Assembly: GCF_944393015.1 (NCBI RefSeq)
Contig: NZ_CALXYQ010000007.1
Location: 1 to 64,000, forward strand
Reading direction: 5' to 3'
Length of the DNA: 64,000 nt
From: an uncultured Brachyspira sp.
GTDB lineage: Bacteria; Spirochaetota; Brachyspiria; Brachyspirales; Brachyspiraceae
The stretch's first letter is position 1. Each line of letters starts with the position of its first letter. Below are positions 9,156-59,895 of this stretch, piece after piece. The notes under the pieces were generated by a model, which had not been told where the DNA came from, did not search any database, and saw only the letters and a list, made by a program, of their open reading frames with translations. A program made the position numbers and the translations under genes.

Positions 9156-9497
9156 TATATACTGAAAATTTTTAAGTTTGTCAATTTTTATATTTTGTAA
9201 ATATATTATCAACTTTTTTGTCGCTCAAAAAAGTTGCAAAAACGCATATACTACAGCTTAATATTTTAAGAATACATGTTAAATGTAATATAATACAGTA
9301 ATTTTATGTCAAAAATCAGTTCTTCGCGAAATGTATCCGAGCCTGTCGAGGATATAGGTTCTCGCCTGCCGAAGGCACGCACAGCGAGGCGTACTTCCTA
9401 TGTGTCACGCCAAAGGCGGACTTCGTCTGGTTCTTTTTGCTGCGGGAAAAAGAACAACAAAAAAATTGACAAACTTAAAAATTTTCAGTATATACAA
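9156..9497 (+). mobile_element. Family A MITE-like element, copy A1
   Basis: About 342 bp with long terminal inverted repeats of roughly 33 nt: TATATACTGAAAATTTTTAA at the left, its complement TTAAAAATTTTCAGTATATA at the right, each followed inward by GTTTGTCAA/TTGACAAAC. The inside holds an AACTTTTTTG...CAAAAAAGTT hairpin at about 9211-9238 and a G+C-richer block at about 9320-9450 containing CGCGAA, GTATCCGAGCCTGTCGAGG and several palindromes. There is no transposase, so it would depend on one in trans. Both ends read outward as TTGACA-N17-TATATA, a promoter-like arrangement. A short open frame through the G+C block (9306-9581) looks like a by-product of composition. Confidence 0.8.
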
Positions 9498-9533: not shown

Positions 9534-11798
9534 TTAACTTTTATACCAAGAAGGAGGATTACTTTCTATAGGAGAATTTGAAAAAGCATATTTCATATTA
9601 ACATTTTCTCCTAATTTCCAAGATTCTAAATCCTGATTGAAATTAATACAGTTATCAAATAAAAATGATATATATTTAATATTAGACATATTCCATTTAT
9701 CTAAAGGCTGATTGAAATTTGAAGCCCATTGAAACATTGAGGTTATAGATTCAGCATTACTCATATTCCAATCATTTAAAGGCTGATTAAAACTTTTTGC
9801 ATACCTAAACATAGCATCTGCATATTTTAATTTGCTTATATTCCATTTAGAAATATCCTGATTAAAAGAATATGCACTTTCAAACATAAAGCTCATAATT
9901 TCTACATTACTAACATTCCAATTACTTAAATCATTATTAAAAATAATACAATGTGAAAACATAAAATTCATATATTTCACATTAGAAACATTCCAATTAT
10001 TAAGAGGCTGATTAAATCTAGTACAGCCTTCAAACATATAAGCCATATCTTCTACTTTAGATACATTCCAATTTTCTATATTATGATTAAAATATACAGC
10101 TCCTTTAAACATATTATGCATATCTTCTACATTTGAAGTATCCCAAGTTTCAATACCGTCAAATTTTTTAACTTTTGAATTTTGAAATAATCCTGACATA
10201 TCAGTTATTAAGCTAGTATCTATTTTATCATATTTTACTTTTTCTTTTATTAGTTTTAATAATTCTATTTTGTTTTTAGGTTTATATTTTTCATTATCTT
10301 TTAATTCTATTTTTTTAGCTTTTTTATATTCTAATATAATACTCTCTTTATTTTCAATTAGTTCCTTTAATTCATCATAATAAGTATTTTCAAGTTTCTT
10401 TATAAAATCTTTAAGTTTATTATATTTCAAAACTTCTTTATAAACTTCTTTTATATTGCAGTTTTCAAGCATAGCTAAAAGTTTTTTTCTATTATTTCCT
10501 TTAGATAAAAAATAAATATTTAATATAGACTTAACATTCTTAAAAGAAGAAGCACCAGAAAAAATATCATCAATAAAGCAAGCCTCATTAATAATCCAAT
10601 TTTCTATAGATTTATTAAAACTTTCAGCACCGCTAAACATATATGACATATAAATTGCACTAAAAACATTCCAGCTTCCAATATCCTGATTAAAACTTTT
10701 TGCATTAAAAAACATATAGTTCATATATAAAACATTAGAAGTATCCCAATTATTTAAAGGCTGATTAAAATTATAAGCATTCTCAAACATACCAAGCATA
10801 TTTTCTGTTTTACTTACATTCCAATTATTAATATCTTGATTAAAATTTTTTGCCTCAAAAAACATACATTTCATATTTACTACGTTTGAAGTATCCCATT
10901 TATCTAATGGCTGATTAAAACTTTTACATTTACAAAACATATTGCTCATATCTTTTACATTGCTTGTATTCCAATTATTTATATCAGAATTAAATCTCTC
11001 TGCCTCTTCAAACATAGAACGCATATTTTCAACTTTAGAAGTGTCCCAATTATTTAAAGGCTGATTAAAATTTTCAGCACATTTAAACATGCTGTTCATA
11101 TCCGTAACATTAGAAACATTCCAATCATTCAAACTCTGATTAAAATTCTTACATCTCTCAAACATGCTATACATTTTAGTAACATTAACTACATTCCAAT
11201 TACTAATAGATTGATCAAAATTTTCTGCCTCAAAAAACATGCAGCTCATATTCTCAGCATTAGATACATTCCAACTATTTAAATCCTGATTAAATTTTTT
11301 ACATCCGCTAAACATTCCATACATATTTTTAACATTACTTACATTCCAATTATTCAAAGGCTGATTAAAAGATGATGCCCCATAAAACATAAAGCTCATA
11401 TTTTCAACATTGGATACATTCCAGCTATTTAAATTTTTATTAAACTTCTTGCAATCAAAAAATATACTATTCATATCTTTAACTTTATAAACATTCCAAT
11501 CACCTATATATTGATTAAATTCTTCAGCACCGAAAAACATACAAGCCATATTCTCAACATTAGATACATTCCATTTTGATATATCAATATTAAATGTTCT
11601 GCAATTAAAAAACATATCATGCATATCTATAACATTAGAAGTCTCCCAATTTTCAATACCGTCAAATTTTTTTCTTGTTGATTCTTTGAATAATATACTC
11701 ATATCAATAATTAAACTTGTATCTATATCACCCAAGTAAACATTATTATTTTCTACTAACTTTTGTAACTCTTCTTTTGTTTGAGGCTTGTATTTCAT
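9534..11798 (-). CDS. BspA-like DUF285 tandem-repeat protein
   Basis: 754-aa protein built almost wholly of about 24-residue DUF285 units of the type FNQPLNNWNVSNVKNMxxMF (Pfam 'Mycoplasma protein of unknown function', related to BspA-like repeats). I count about 23 Trp-containing units: 15 in the N-terminal part and 8 after residue about 504, separated by a Lys/Glu-rich helical linker (about 410-500). The second block repeats the N-terminal cap (KYKPQTKEEL... and KYKPKNKIEL..., each followed by IDTSLI-DMS), so the protein arose by internal duplication. No signal peptide or anchor is visible, unlike many surface BspA proteins. AAGGA lies 9-10 nt before the ATG. A binding or adhesion role is possible from family knowledge but unproven. 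Confidence 0.88.
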   Translation of the reverse strand: MKYKPQTKEELQKLVENNNVYLGDIDTSLIIDMSILFKESTRKKFDGIENWETSNVIDMHDMFFNCRTFNIDISKWNVSNVENMACMFFGAEEFNQYIGDWNVYKVKDMNSIFFDCKKFNKNLNSWNVSNVENMSFMFYGASSFNQPLNNWNVSNVKNMYGMFSGCKKFNQDLNSWNVSNAENMSCMFFEAENFDQSISNWNVVNVTKMYSMFERCKNFNQSLNDWNVSNVTDMNSMFKCAENFNQPLNNWDTSKVENMRSMFEEAERFNSDINNWNTSNVKDMSNMFCKCKSFNQPLDKWDTSNVVNMKCMFFEAKNFNQDINNWNVSKTENMLGMFENAYNFNQPLNNWDTSNVLYMNYMFFNAKSFNQDIGSWNVFSAIYMSYMFSGAESFNKSIENWIINEACFIDDIFSGASSFKNVKSILNIYFLSKGNNRKKLLAMLENCNIKEVYKEVLKYNKLKDFIKKLENTYYDELKELIENKESIILEYKKAKKIELKDNEKYKPKNKIELLKLIKEKVKYDKIDTSLITDMSGLFQNSKVKKFDGIETWDTSNVEDMHNMFKGAVYFNHNIENWNVSKVEDMAYMFEGCTRFNQPLNNWNVSNVKYMNFMFSHCIIFNNDLSNWNVSNVEIMSFMFESAYSFNQDISKWNISKLKYADAMFRYAKSFNQPLNDWNMSNAESITSMFQWASNFNQPLDKWNMSNIKYISFLFDNCINFNQDLESWKLGENVNMKYAFSNSPIESNPPSWYKS

Positions 11799-15118: not shown

Positions 15119-15506
15119 GTATATACTTAAAAAATATAGTTCGTCAATTTATATATTTTTATAGATATATTATCAACTTTTTTGCCGCACAAAAAAGTTG
15201 CAAAAAACGCAAGTGCTACAACCTTATATTATTACAATATATATTAAATGTGTGATAATACCTAAAATTTAGGTTACCCCTTGCCACAGGCACGCAGAGC
15301 GAAGGCGGACTTCGTCAAATGCAGTCTTTCGCGAAGCGTATCCGAGCCTGTCAAGGATATAGGTTCTTTGTGCCAATACCATACCTAAAGGTACTCCTTT
15401 AAGTCGCAGTACTTCCTTCAGTCACAAAAGAACTGGGGGTGTGGGGGCTAGTCCCCACAAATAAATCTAATTTTTTAACAAATTATAGTCATTTAGTTAT
15501 ATACTA
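15119..15506 (+). mobile_element. Family A MITE-like element, copy A2
   Basis: About 388 bp between argF and argG. Ends GTATATACTTAA and TTAGTTATATAC are diverged but still match family ends. Inside are the AACTTTTTTGCCGCAC...AAAAAAGTT hairpin (about 15173-15200), CGCGAAGCGTATCCGAGCCT (15331-15350) and a GTGGGGGCTAGTCCCCAC palindrome (about 15439-15460). The outward ends read TTAACA-N17-TATATA (right) and TTGACG-N16-TATATA (left). A further family A-like fragment (TTCTTTTTCCCGCCGC) lies just to the left at 15018-15033. No transposase. Confidence 0.7.
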
Positions 15507-17653: not shown

Positions 17654-17682
17654 ATTATAATAAAATGTTTTTAGTTTGTCAA
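17654..17682 (-). promoter_or_regulatory. Consensus sigma-70 promoter of the Rpn nuclease gene
   Basis: Minus strand: TTGACA (17677-17682), 17-nt spacer, TATAAT (17654-17659), both perfect. The ATG at 17646 comes 7 nt after the -10, so the predicted transcript would begin at or next to the start codon. The -35 lies in what looks like a collapsed family A end (TATATACTGAAAATTTT joined to GACAAACT at about 17673-17698). Confidence 0.75.
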
Positions 17683-23012: not shown

Positions 23013-23552
23013 ATGAAAAAAATTGTATTTGTGTTTATAATATTATTAACAATATCAATACAGGCATTCTCTGCTGCTGTAACAACACATTATAATAATT
23101 GGAAAATAAGAAGAATAACATATAACAATACTGATACAAAAACTGTTACAATGACTATAAAAAACAATAATAGTTTAGAGGTATATATAGCAGCTAGAAA
23201 TAATCAAGTCAGCGTAAGCATAAACTGGTATAAAGATAAAGTAGATGAAAATACTCCTGTAGTAGAATATAGTTTCAATAATTCACCTTATAAATCTGTA
23301 GAGCCTTTTATGAGATCTTCAAGTGATAATTTCGATATATTATACACAATATCACCTGCTTTCGGAATCATACAGGAGAAAGAAGTTATTGAGTTCTTAA
23401 GTAAATTAATAAACAGTAAAACTCTATCAATAAAACCTAATAGTGGCAGTCAGGCATATACTATTGATGTTACAGGATTAAAAGAGGCAATGCAGAAAAC
23501 TGATTTCTCTGGAACTCTATTAGAAAAATATAAGAGTCAGATATTAAAATAA
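23013..23552 (+). CDS. Secreted hypothetical protein
   Basis: 179-aa protein with signal peptide ending near AFSAA and no lipobox, so probably periplasmic. The body is beta-rich with many Asn/Thr/Tyr residues (KTVTMTIKNNNSLEVYIAAR) and a helical C-terminus. GGAGAAG precedes the ATG. Function unknown; it stands alone. Confidence 0.7.
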   Translation: MKKIVFVFIILLTISIQAFSAAVTTHYNNWKIRRITYNNTDTKTVTMTIKNNNSLEVYIAARNNQVSVSINWYKDKVDENTPVVEYSFNNSPYKSVEPFMRSSSDNFDILYTISPAFGIIQEKEVIEFLSKLINSKTLSIKPNSGSQAYTIDVTGLKEAMQKTDFSGTLLEKYKSQILK

Positions 23553-32904: not shown

Positions 32905-33117
32905 GAGGTAGATTTCGTCGGTACGATTCATGAAAACACATATACTACAACTTAATATTTTAAAAATACATGTTTAAATGTAATATAAAACTATATATTT
33001 GTATAATAATAAGTAATCAGCCGCACGTATAGTTGGCATTTGATAAGATGAGACAGTACCGTGCGGGAAGGTGCCGCAGCTCGCAGTTGACAAACTTAAA
33101 AATTTTCAGTATATATT
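32905..33117 (+). mobile_element. Family A remnant, copy A3 (right end only)
   Basis: The block CATATACTACAACTTAATAT (32939-32958) corresponds to the interior of copy A1, and the right end TTGACAAACTTAAAAATTTT (33087-33106) CAGTATATA is intact; no left end is found. A G+C-rich stretch at 33020-33086 contains GCCGCACG/CGTGCGG, resembling the inner block of family B, so the two families may be mixed here. The right end supplies a promoter facing the rhodanese gene. Confidence 0.6.
33087..33115 (+). promoter_or_regulatory. Outward promoter in family A end, upstream of rhodanese gene
   Basis: TTGACA (33087-33092), 17-nt spacer, TATATA (33110-33115), about 70 nt before ATG 33185 and pointing at it. 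Every element of this promoter is part of the family A terminal repeat. Confidence 0.6.
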
Positions 33118-53398: not shown

Positions 53399-53714
53399 TA
53401 TATACTGAAAATTTTTAAGTTTATCAATTTTTTTATTGTTCTTTTTCCCGCCGCAAAAAGAACCAAAAAGTGCAAGTATAAAATTAGTACTAAATCATAC
53501 TAAAGTTGTCTTACATTTAAGATAATTTATTAAATTTAAGATACAATATAGCCTTTCGCGAAGCGTATCCGAGTTTATCGAGGATATAGCTTCTTTGGGG
53601 CACGCCAAAGGCACTTCCTTCGGTCGCAAAAGAAGTGGGGTATGGGGCAAAGCCCCATATATAAAAACAAAAATATAAATTTATTTTTGACAAAGGATAA
53701 TTGTTTAGGTATAT
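53399..53714 (+). mobile_element. Family A MITE-like element, copy A4
   Basis: About 316 bp. Left end TATATACTGAAAATTTTTAA then GTTTATCAA; right end TTGACAAAGGATAATTGTTT (53688-53707) AGGTATATA, a different inner sequence but the same TTGACA-N17-TATATA. Inside: TTCTTTTTCCCGCCGCAAAAAGAA hairpin, TTCGCGAAGCGTATCCGAG (about 53556-53574) and a TATGGGGCAAAGCCCCATA palindrome (about 53641-53659). It lies inside family B DNA, so the insertion is a nested one. Confidence 0.78.
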
Positions 53715-53739
53715 ATTAAAATTTTTGTTATCTTTTCAG

Positions 53740-55159: not shown

Positions 55160-55188
55160 TTGACATTTATTAGTTATTTCATTATAAT
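55160..55188 (+). promoter_or_regulatory. Consensus sigma-70 promoter of the second Rpn nuclease gene
   Basis: TTGACA (55160-55165), 17-nt spacer, TATAAT (55183-55188), both perfect; ATG 55195 begins 6 nt after the -10, so the transcript is predicted to start at the start codon. Confidence 0.8.
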
Positions 55189-58163: not shown

Positions 58164-58438
58164 TATATACTGAAAATTTTTAAGTTTGTCAATCTAGGCA
58201 CTTTATATAAAATTATCTACTTTTTTGCCGCACAAAAAAGTAGCAAAAAACGCAATTACTAGAACTTTATATTAAATATATACTTATTAAATATGGGATA
58301 TAACCTAAATTTAGACTATAAATGCAGTTCTTTTGGTTCTTTTATACCAATAAAAGAACTGGGGTGCGGGGCAAAGCCCTGCAAATATTTTAAATTAAAA
58401 CAATTATTTTGACAAAATATAATTGTTTAGGTATATAC
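58164..58438 (+). mobile_element. Family A MITE-like element, copy A5
   Basis: About 275 bp. Left end TATATACTGAAAATTTTTAA with GTTTGTCAA; right end TTGACAAAATATAATTGTTT AGGTATATAC (TTGACA-N17-TATATA). Inside: CTACTTTTTTGCCGCACAAAAAAGTAG hairpin (about 58209-58235) and GTGCGGGGCAAAGCCCTGCA palindrome (58364-58383). It shares its last bases TATATAC with copy A6, so the two are directly tandem. Confidence 0.75.
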
Positions 58439-58745
58439 TGAAAATTTTTAAGGTTATCATTTTTATTCAACTTTTTCCAGCCGCATACGCTCTGCGGACT
58501 TCGTCAAAGTTTTTATCCTTCGGATACGCTATGCGAAAAACGCAATTGTTAGAACTTTATATTAAAAATATATGTATTAAATGTATGGTACAACCTAAAT
58601 TTAGACTACACCTTGCCACAGGCACGCAGAGCGTCGGTAAAAGAACTGGGGTATGACACGTCTGTACGCTTCGCAGCAAAGCCCCAGATATTAAAAACAA
58701 AATATAACTTTATTTTTTGACAAAGTTAAAAATTTTTAGAATACT
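58432..58745 (+). mobile_element. Family A MITE-like element, copy A6
   Basis: About 314 bp. Left end TATATACTGAAAATTTTTAA with GGTTATCA; right end TTGACAAAGTTAAAAATTTT then TAGAATACT (TTGACA-N17-AATACT). Interior G+C blocks GCCGCATACGCTCTGCGGAC (58481-58500) and CCACAGGCACGCAGAGCG. The outward right end lies 3' of the membrane-protein gene and so points antisense to it. Confidence 0.7.
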
Positions 58746-59522: not shown

Positions 59523-59720
59523 GTATATACCTAAACAACTATATTTTGTCAAAAATTATTTTATTATTTTTATTATTTGTGGGGACTAGCCCCACCGCTC
59601 TGCGTACTTCGTAACACCCCCACTTCTTTTGCGACCGAAGGAAGTACTGTTAAGTATTGCCACAAAGAAGCTATATCCTCGATAAACTCGGATACGCTTC
59701 GCGAAAGGCTACATTTTGTC
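59523..59720 (-). mobile_element. Family A element, copy A7, reverse orientation, partial
   Basis: Begins TAGTATATACCTAAACAACT (59522-59541) then ATATTTTGTCAA, the complement of the right end of copy A5, so it reads TTGACA-N17-TATATA outward to the left. It then shows GTGGGGACTAGCCCCACC, GCGACCGAAGGAAGTAC and CTCGATAAACTCGGATACGC TTCGCGAA in reverse. The other end is lost where it meets the gene fragment at 59735. Confidence 0.65.
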
Positions 59721-59734
59721 TTTAATTTTATGAA

Positions 59735-59895
59735 TTACATTACATTATATATTATTTCTTTTTTTTCTTTTATATTTTTATCAGCCATAGCAAAAAATGA
59801 TATTGCAGTAGACGGTATAATTAAAGATAAGAAGAGATATAGTATAAGAACTATTACATTATCTTTGCTGTCATTTTTTTCTTTTTAATTTTCAT
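59735..59895 (-). pseudogene. N-terminal fragment of the membrane-protein family
   Basis: Minus strand, about 53 codons: NDSKDNVIVLILYLFLSLII, PSTAISFFAMADKNIKEKKE and a short tail, nearly identical to the start of the gene at 58753-59303 (about 80% by eye), including the same seven-T run (59874-59880) that puts ATG 59895 out of frame. It breaks off next to family A copy A7. A relic of a tandem duplication. Confidence 0.7.

Follow-up and report, generated by a model that had tools for sequence, protein, structure and literature searches.

Insertion sequences of the IS630 / Tc1-mariner type and the MITEs derived from them duplicate a TA on insertion, and these MITEs are high-copy derivatives that carry no cargo and have terminal inverted repeats in common with the transposase-bearing insertion sequence. 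The repeat family described here, from a Brachyspira genome of 3.44 Mb (hereafter the own genome), is alike in these respects. It differs in that its left and right ends are clearly unlike beyond a common TTGACAAA and GTA, in a strong preference for TATATA, and in ends that are specific to the genus. The Correia elements of Neisseria (CREE, NEMIS), which also duplicate TA, may be regarded as the nearest functional analogue: by description, not by sequence, they too are short MITEs with more than 100 copies and promoter-like sequences. Two strong promoters are present on some Correia subtypes, and the copies lie mainly upstream of genes (PMC10969869), whereas the Brachyspira ends avoid gene starts. 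MITEAba12, BrickBuilt, QMITE1 and SonMITE_1 are further MITEs with sigma70-like promoters (PMC10969869). Sigma70-like motifs are present on the Brachyspira elements as well, but here the predicted -10 comes largely from the target site.

Full-text literature searches returned no description of a MITE from Brachyspira, and, as far as the searched literature shows, this is a previously undescribed family of the established IS630-MITE type. The end pattern is present in 22 of 26 Brachyspira genomes, with 0 to 263 exact sites per genome, and among 270 other genomes of the phylum a single one has it, at one site. Named records with the same ends are all from Brachyspira among the matches listed. 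With as many as 263 exact ends in one genome, the family offers a large natural series for asking when the ends of mobile elements turn into host promoters.

In our opinion, with a probability of about 0.87, the family consists of IS630-derived MITEs whose promoter-like ends are put together from the target site and the terminal repeat, a minority of them having been co-opted. The elements would be short and non-autonomous, would be moved by an IS630-family (Tc1/mariner-type) transposase, and would duplicate TA on insertion, preferably at TATATA targets. The outward-facing TTGACA-N17-TATATA would then be a composite of an inner terminal-repeat motif and the terminal GTA from the element, the duplicated TA, and the next two bases of the target. 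Its place in the terminal repeat would be the reason why TTGACA is kept. The original prediction gave the same motif a different meaning. It held that both boxes and the 17-nt spacing are kept while the spacer diverges, that this reflects selection for promoter function, and that the elements could switch on neighbouring genes from either end.

The repeat family itself does exist. The window, that is the whole stretch of DNA analysed, comprises the first 64 kb of contig C7 and contains seven exact TTGACA-N17-TATATA motifs, against 0.08 expected from shuffles; the own genome contains 173, against 4 for the reversed control. Two distinct inner sequences do occur, as predicted, and N17 is kept in both. 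They do not represent two families. Elements were collected across 0.46 Mb of the own genome and at 80 named Brachyspira loci. This gave 103 elements of 180-480 bp with two outward-facing ends each, and 90 of them pair a left end X (5'-TACTGAAAATTTTTAAGTTTGTCAA) with a right end Y (5'-TACCTAAACAACTATATTTTGTCAA), so the inner sequences mark opposite ends of a single asymmetric element. A third and rarer class of end, Z, has an X-like tip and keeps TATATA, mostly with TCGGCA in place of TTGACA. The interiors are rich in hairpins, with no common open reading frame seen in them; they have a common hairpin scaffold, and the differences between them are G+C-rich palindromic inserts. The copies in the window are as follows.

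9156 to 9494, no strand: atypical X+X element, both ends exact (motifs at 9156-9184, minus, and 9466-9494, plus); the right end is directed at the 3' end of the gene at 9534-11798, minus.
15120 to 15505, no strand: degenerate element; by direct reading, TTGACG with a 16-nt spacer on the left and TTAACA-N17-TATATA on the right.
32905 to 33115, plus: truncated element, left end gone, right X end exact (33087-33115, plus).
53399 to 53715, plus: X-Y element, TTGATA at the X end, Y end exact (53687-53715, plus).
58164 to 58437, plus: X-Y element with two exact ends (58164-58192, minus, and 58409-58437, plus); its TATATA at 58432-58437 is common to the next copy.
58432 to 58745, plus: tandem element, running from an X end (ATGATA) to an X-like end (TTGACA...AATACT).
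59524 to 59743, minus: exact Y end at 59524 (59524-59552, minus), other end not recognisable; the right boundary is an estimate, the duplicated flank resuming at 59744.

The claim that all seven listed starts carry TTGACA at a fixed distance thus holds for 9156, 58164 and 59524 only. It fails for the other four: 53399 has TTGATA, 58432 has ATGATA, 15119 has TTGACG and the shorter spacer, and 32905 is truncated and lacks its left end. The remaining exact motifs of the window are at the right ends of elements.

Some copies carry in their hairpins G+C-rich palindromic micro-inserts (e.g. TTTCGCGAAGCGTATCCGAGTTTATCGAGGATATAG) that are absent from others; examples are at 53547-53590, 15325-15362 and 59665-59705 of the window and at many related loci. 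They are possibly a smaller repeat nested within the MITE.

The mode of insertion can be read from empty sites in the closest relative, the sister genome G009, which is about 95% identical and was compared over about 0.63 Mb. At clean empty sites the insertion lengthens the TA run by exactly three units: a run of three becomes 3+3, 4+2 or 2+4, and a run of two becomes 3+2. This arithmetic fits a TA duplication together with element termini TAC...GTA, while the 4+2 and 2+4 splits exclude a duplication of 6-bp TATATA or 4-bp TATA. Of 237 non-tandem ends, 192 have TA as the next dinucleotide outside the duplication, and the preferred target is TATATA. Two bases of the apparent -10 TATATA are therefore from the element, two from the duplication and two from the target, which means that four of its six bases derive from the target site. 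An empty site is recognisable in the sister genome for 7 of 29 elements, hence movement has been recent relative to the divergence of the two genomes. In the window, the sister genome has an empty site for the element at 53399-53715 and lacks the element at 32905-33115, whose X end is directed at a rhodanese-like gene with its start 60-70 nt downstream. At the site of the element at 9156-9494, G009 has an additional X-Y element and another relative, G023, an X-Y element. At C1:172962 the elements of the own genome and of G009 are in opposite orientation, and the flanks differ as well.

Terminal repeats, TA duplication and empty sites in the sister genome all support the MITE nature of the family, and so does a parent IS630. 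In one related genome (G016:C8, about 1637821-1638880) a decayed transposase lies between an X and a Y end spaced by 1,060 bp; it matches NF033545 (IS630; E 1.8e-15), DDE_3 (E 4.8e-10) and HTH_33. Four further genomes (G024, G015, G023 and G021) have matches to the parent at contig tips, where an X or Y end is joined to an open transposase start or end; we infer that these tips are multicopy insertion sequences left unassembled. Judged by sequence resemblance, the elements are MITEs of this IS630-family insertion sequence. At the X-end tips, X is followed by TTGTCA-N17-TATAAT-N6-ATG and then the open transposase start (MDFNLTDEEIKFLKAFHKK...). At the Y-end tips, the last transposase codons (HLFEN-stop) take their stop TGA from TTGACA. 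In the parent, the conserved end 8-mer thus holds the transposase stop codon on the Y side and probably provides the -35 of an apparent inward transposase promoter on the X side; its coding role, and its probable promoter role, are independent of any outward promoter. It seems reasonable to suppose that transposase binding is what constrains the terminal repeat and that the MITEs are mobilised in trans.

An intact full-length parent was not seen, only the decayed copy and the tip fragments; an intact transposase gene is assembled in none of the 26 genomes and was not detectable in the own genome. Short transposase-end peptides used as queries gave weak matches only, and phage, plasmid and viral collections gave 0 matches. 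Two other candidates were discarded. A DDE_Tnp_1 (IS4/IS5-type) transposase is present in 4 of the 26 genomes and absent from the own genome, and long outward-facing end pairs in the sampled DNA, considered as autonomous copies, enclose ordinary genes. In a further species (G012) about 60 places encode a protein of 315-323 aa that is weakly matched by the N-terminal portion of the IS630 model; this is probably another insertion sequence that has expanded in that species.

Besides the lack of an intact transposase gene, a second observation counts against the MITE explanation. Adjoining copies often have one TATATA in common, and such tandem junctions in the own genome and related loci are X|Y in 43 cases, Y|Z in 6, X|X in 11 and Y|Y in 1. 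Random insertion would give about 50:25:25, so head-to-tail junctions are strongly over-represented, an excess for which simple random insertion does not account. Single common TATATA sequences and head-to-tail order are what one would look for if circular cassettes had been joined at a TATATA core by site-specific recombination, instead of DDE transposition. This we consider hardly credible, given that an IS630 transposase sits between the same X and Y ends and that target sites have no long arms in common beyond TATATA.

Having retained the MITE explanation, we return to selection for outward promoters. The tests of conservation and orientation drew on about 0.4-0.85 Mb of own-genome sequence and on related loci; genes in the tests are mechanical open reading frames of at least 80 aa. 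When ends are found by way of the element interior rather than through their own sequence, mean identity at X ends (n=294) is 78.2% for TTGACA and 76.2% for the spacer, and at Y ends (n=255) it is 84.4% and 82.6%. In 34 ends common to the sister genome, differences affect 14 of 204 TTGACA positions (6.9%) and 37 of 578 spacer positions (6.4%). The hexamer is thus conserved no more than the spacer, an outcome that the original prediction had named as grounds for giving it up. Orientation tells the same way: of non-tandem ends within 300 bp, 16 are directed toward a gene start and 37 toward a gene 3' end, whereas all intergenic TATATA sites, taken as the null, give 372 and 238 (p=1.7e-5, odds ratio 0.28). 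A larger set of ends gives 90 and 140.

General selection for driving neighbours is not supported, all three tests being against it. The geometry of TTGACA-N17 followed by a TATA-containing hexamer does recur at 173 places, and some ends completed to TATAAT lie 6-33 nt ahead of start codons, as would be expected if the terminal repeats were selected as outward promoters and generally activated flanking genes from both ends. We nevertheless regard such selection as very improbable: beyond the conservation and the depletion at gene starts, most of the -10 is supplied by the target, TATATA is unlike the TATAAT of native perfect promoters, and TTGACA has other roles in the parent insertion sequence. 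A target-site preference and a terminal-repeat constraint can, between them, mimic a conserved promoter. The ends may still have a mild general promoter activity on which selection does not act.

Insertion into a TATAAT box turns the gene-facing end into TTGACA-N17-TATAAT, and a minority of such ends may have been co-opted as promoters. That the elements could switch on neighbours is thus plausible for this minority, with predicted TTGACA-N17-TATAAT ends 6-33 nt before a start codon, and fails as a general property. About 0.85 Mb of sequence contains 16 TTGACA-N17-TATAAT sites. Of these, 15 face a gene start, many with ATG only 6-7 nt past TATAAT, a distance that suggests leaderless mRNAs in Brachyspira. 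Sites with this arrangement include the following.

55160 to 55188 of the window, plus: perfect TTGACA-N17-TATAAT, then ATG after 6-7 nt.
17654 to 17682 of the window, minus: the same.
Related loci L031, L232, L236 and L239: the same.

Among the 15 perfect promoters that face a gene start in this sample, 4 are formed by the end of an element that can be recognised, its interior being homologous too. One case is a gene at C3:138501, called birA-like from sequence resemblance, not from a family search. In the sister genome, where there is no element, it has what would be the original promoter, TTGATA-N17-TATAAT-AAAAAG-ATG; in the own genome an element lies within the TATAAT, giving TTGACA-N17-TATAAT-AAAAAG-ATG. 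The pair constitutes a directly testable before/after promoter replacement across two sister genomes.

This case encourages an addition to the MITE explanation, namely that insertion is self-compensating. Since TATAAT resembles the preferred target and the TTGACA of the terminal repeat is suitably spaced, an element that enters a host -10 would rebuild a consensus promoter, and its insertion would be tolerated or even favoured. The birA-like pair and the 4 element ends among the 15 promoters agree with it, and TATAAT-completed ends are commoner toward starts than toward 3' ends (6:28 against 2:79, p=0.008), although the numbers are small, the comparison was chosen post hoc and orthologous pairs were merged by hand. 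On the other hand, the empty site is available in one case only, TATAAT insertions are rarer than target availability predicts, and the ends as a whole avoid gene starts. We therefore hold the addition to be tentative and, at present, unlikely. Similarly doubtful is its wider form, in which the IS630 terminal repeat leaves the invaded -10 box in place, adds a consensus -35 at 17 nt and in this way repairs the promoter it breaks; element ends would over time have replaced a noticeable share of strong Brachyspira promoters. Within the MITE explanation itself, we suggest more modestly, from the arrangement of the motifs, that a minority of copies, lying in host TATAAT boxes, today serve the adjacent gene as its promoter.

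In three related species (G011, G013 and G017) an alcohol-dehydrogenase-like gene is preceded by two elements in tandem, retained at the same site (L199:5853-6147). An X end is there about 30-36 nt before the start codon and the element interior is conserved too; other species have a different leader at that place.

Another repeat family is scattered through the window; its copies, about 94-133 nt or longer, carry CGCACGCAGAGC-like and CCGCCCAAG motifs and lie at 23552, 24716, 26023, 50870, 53752, 61601 and neighbouring positions. Finally, the open reading frame at 9534-11798 (minus, 754 aa) contains many 75-nt (25-aa) repeats of the MFxxxxxFNxxLxxW type, as in BspA-like surface proteins, and related open reading frames are present elsewhere in the own genome.
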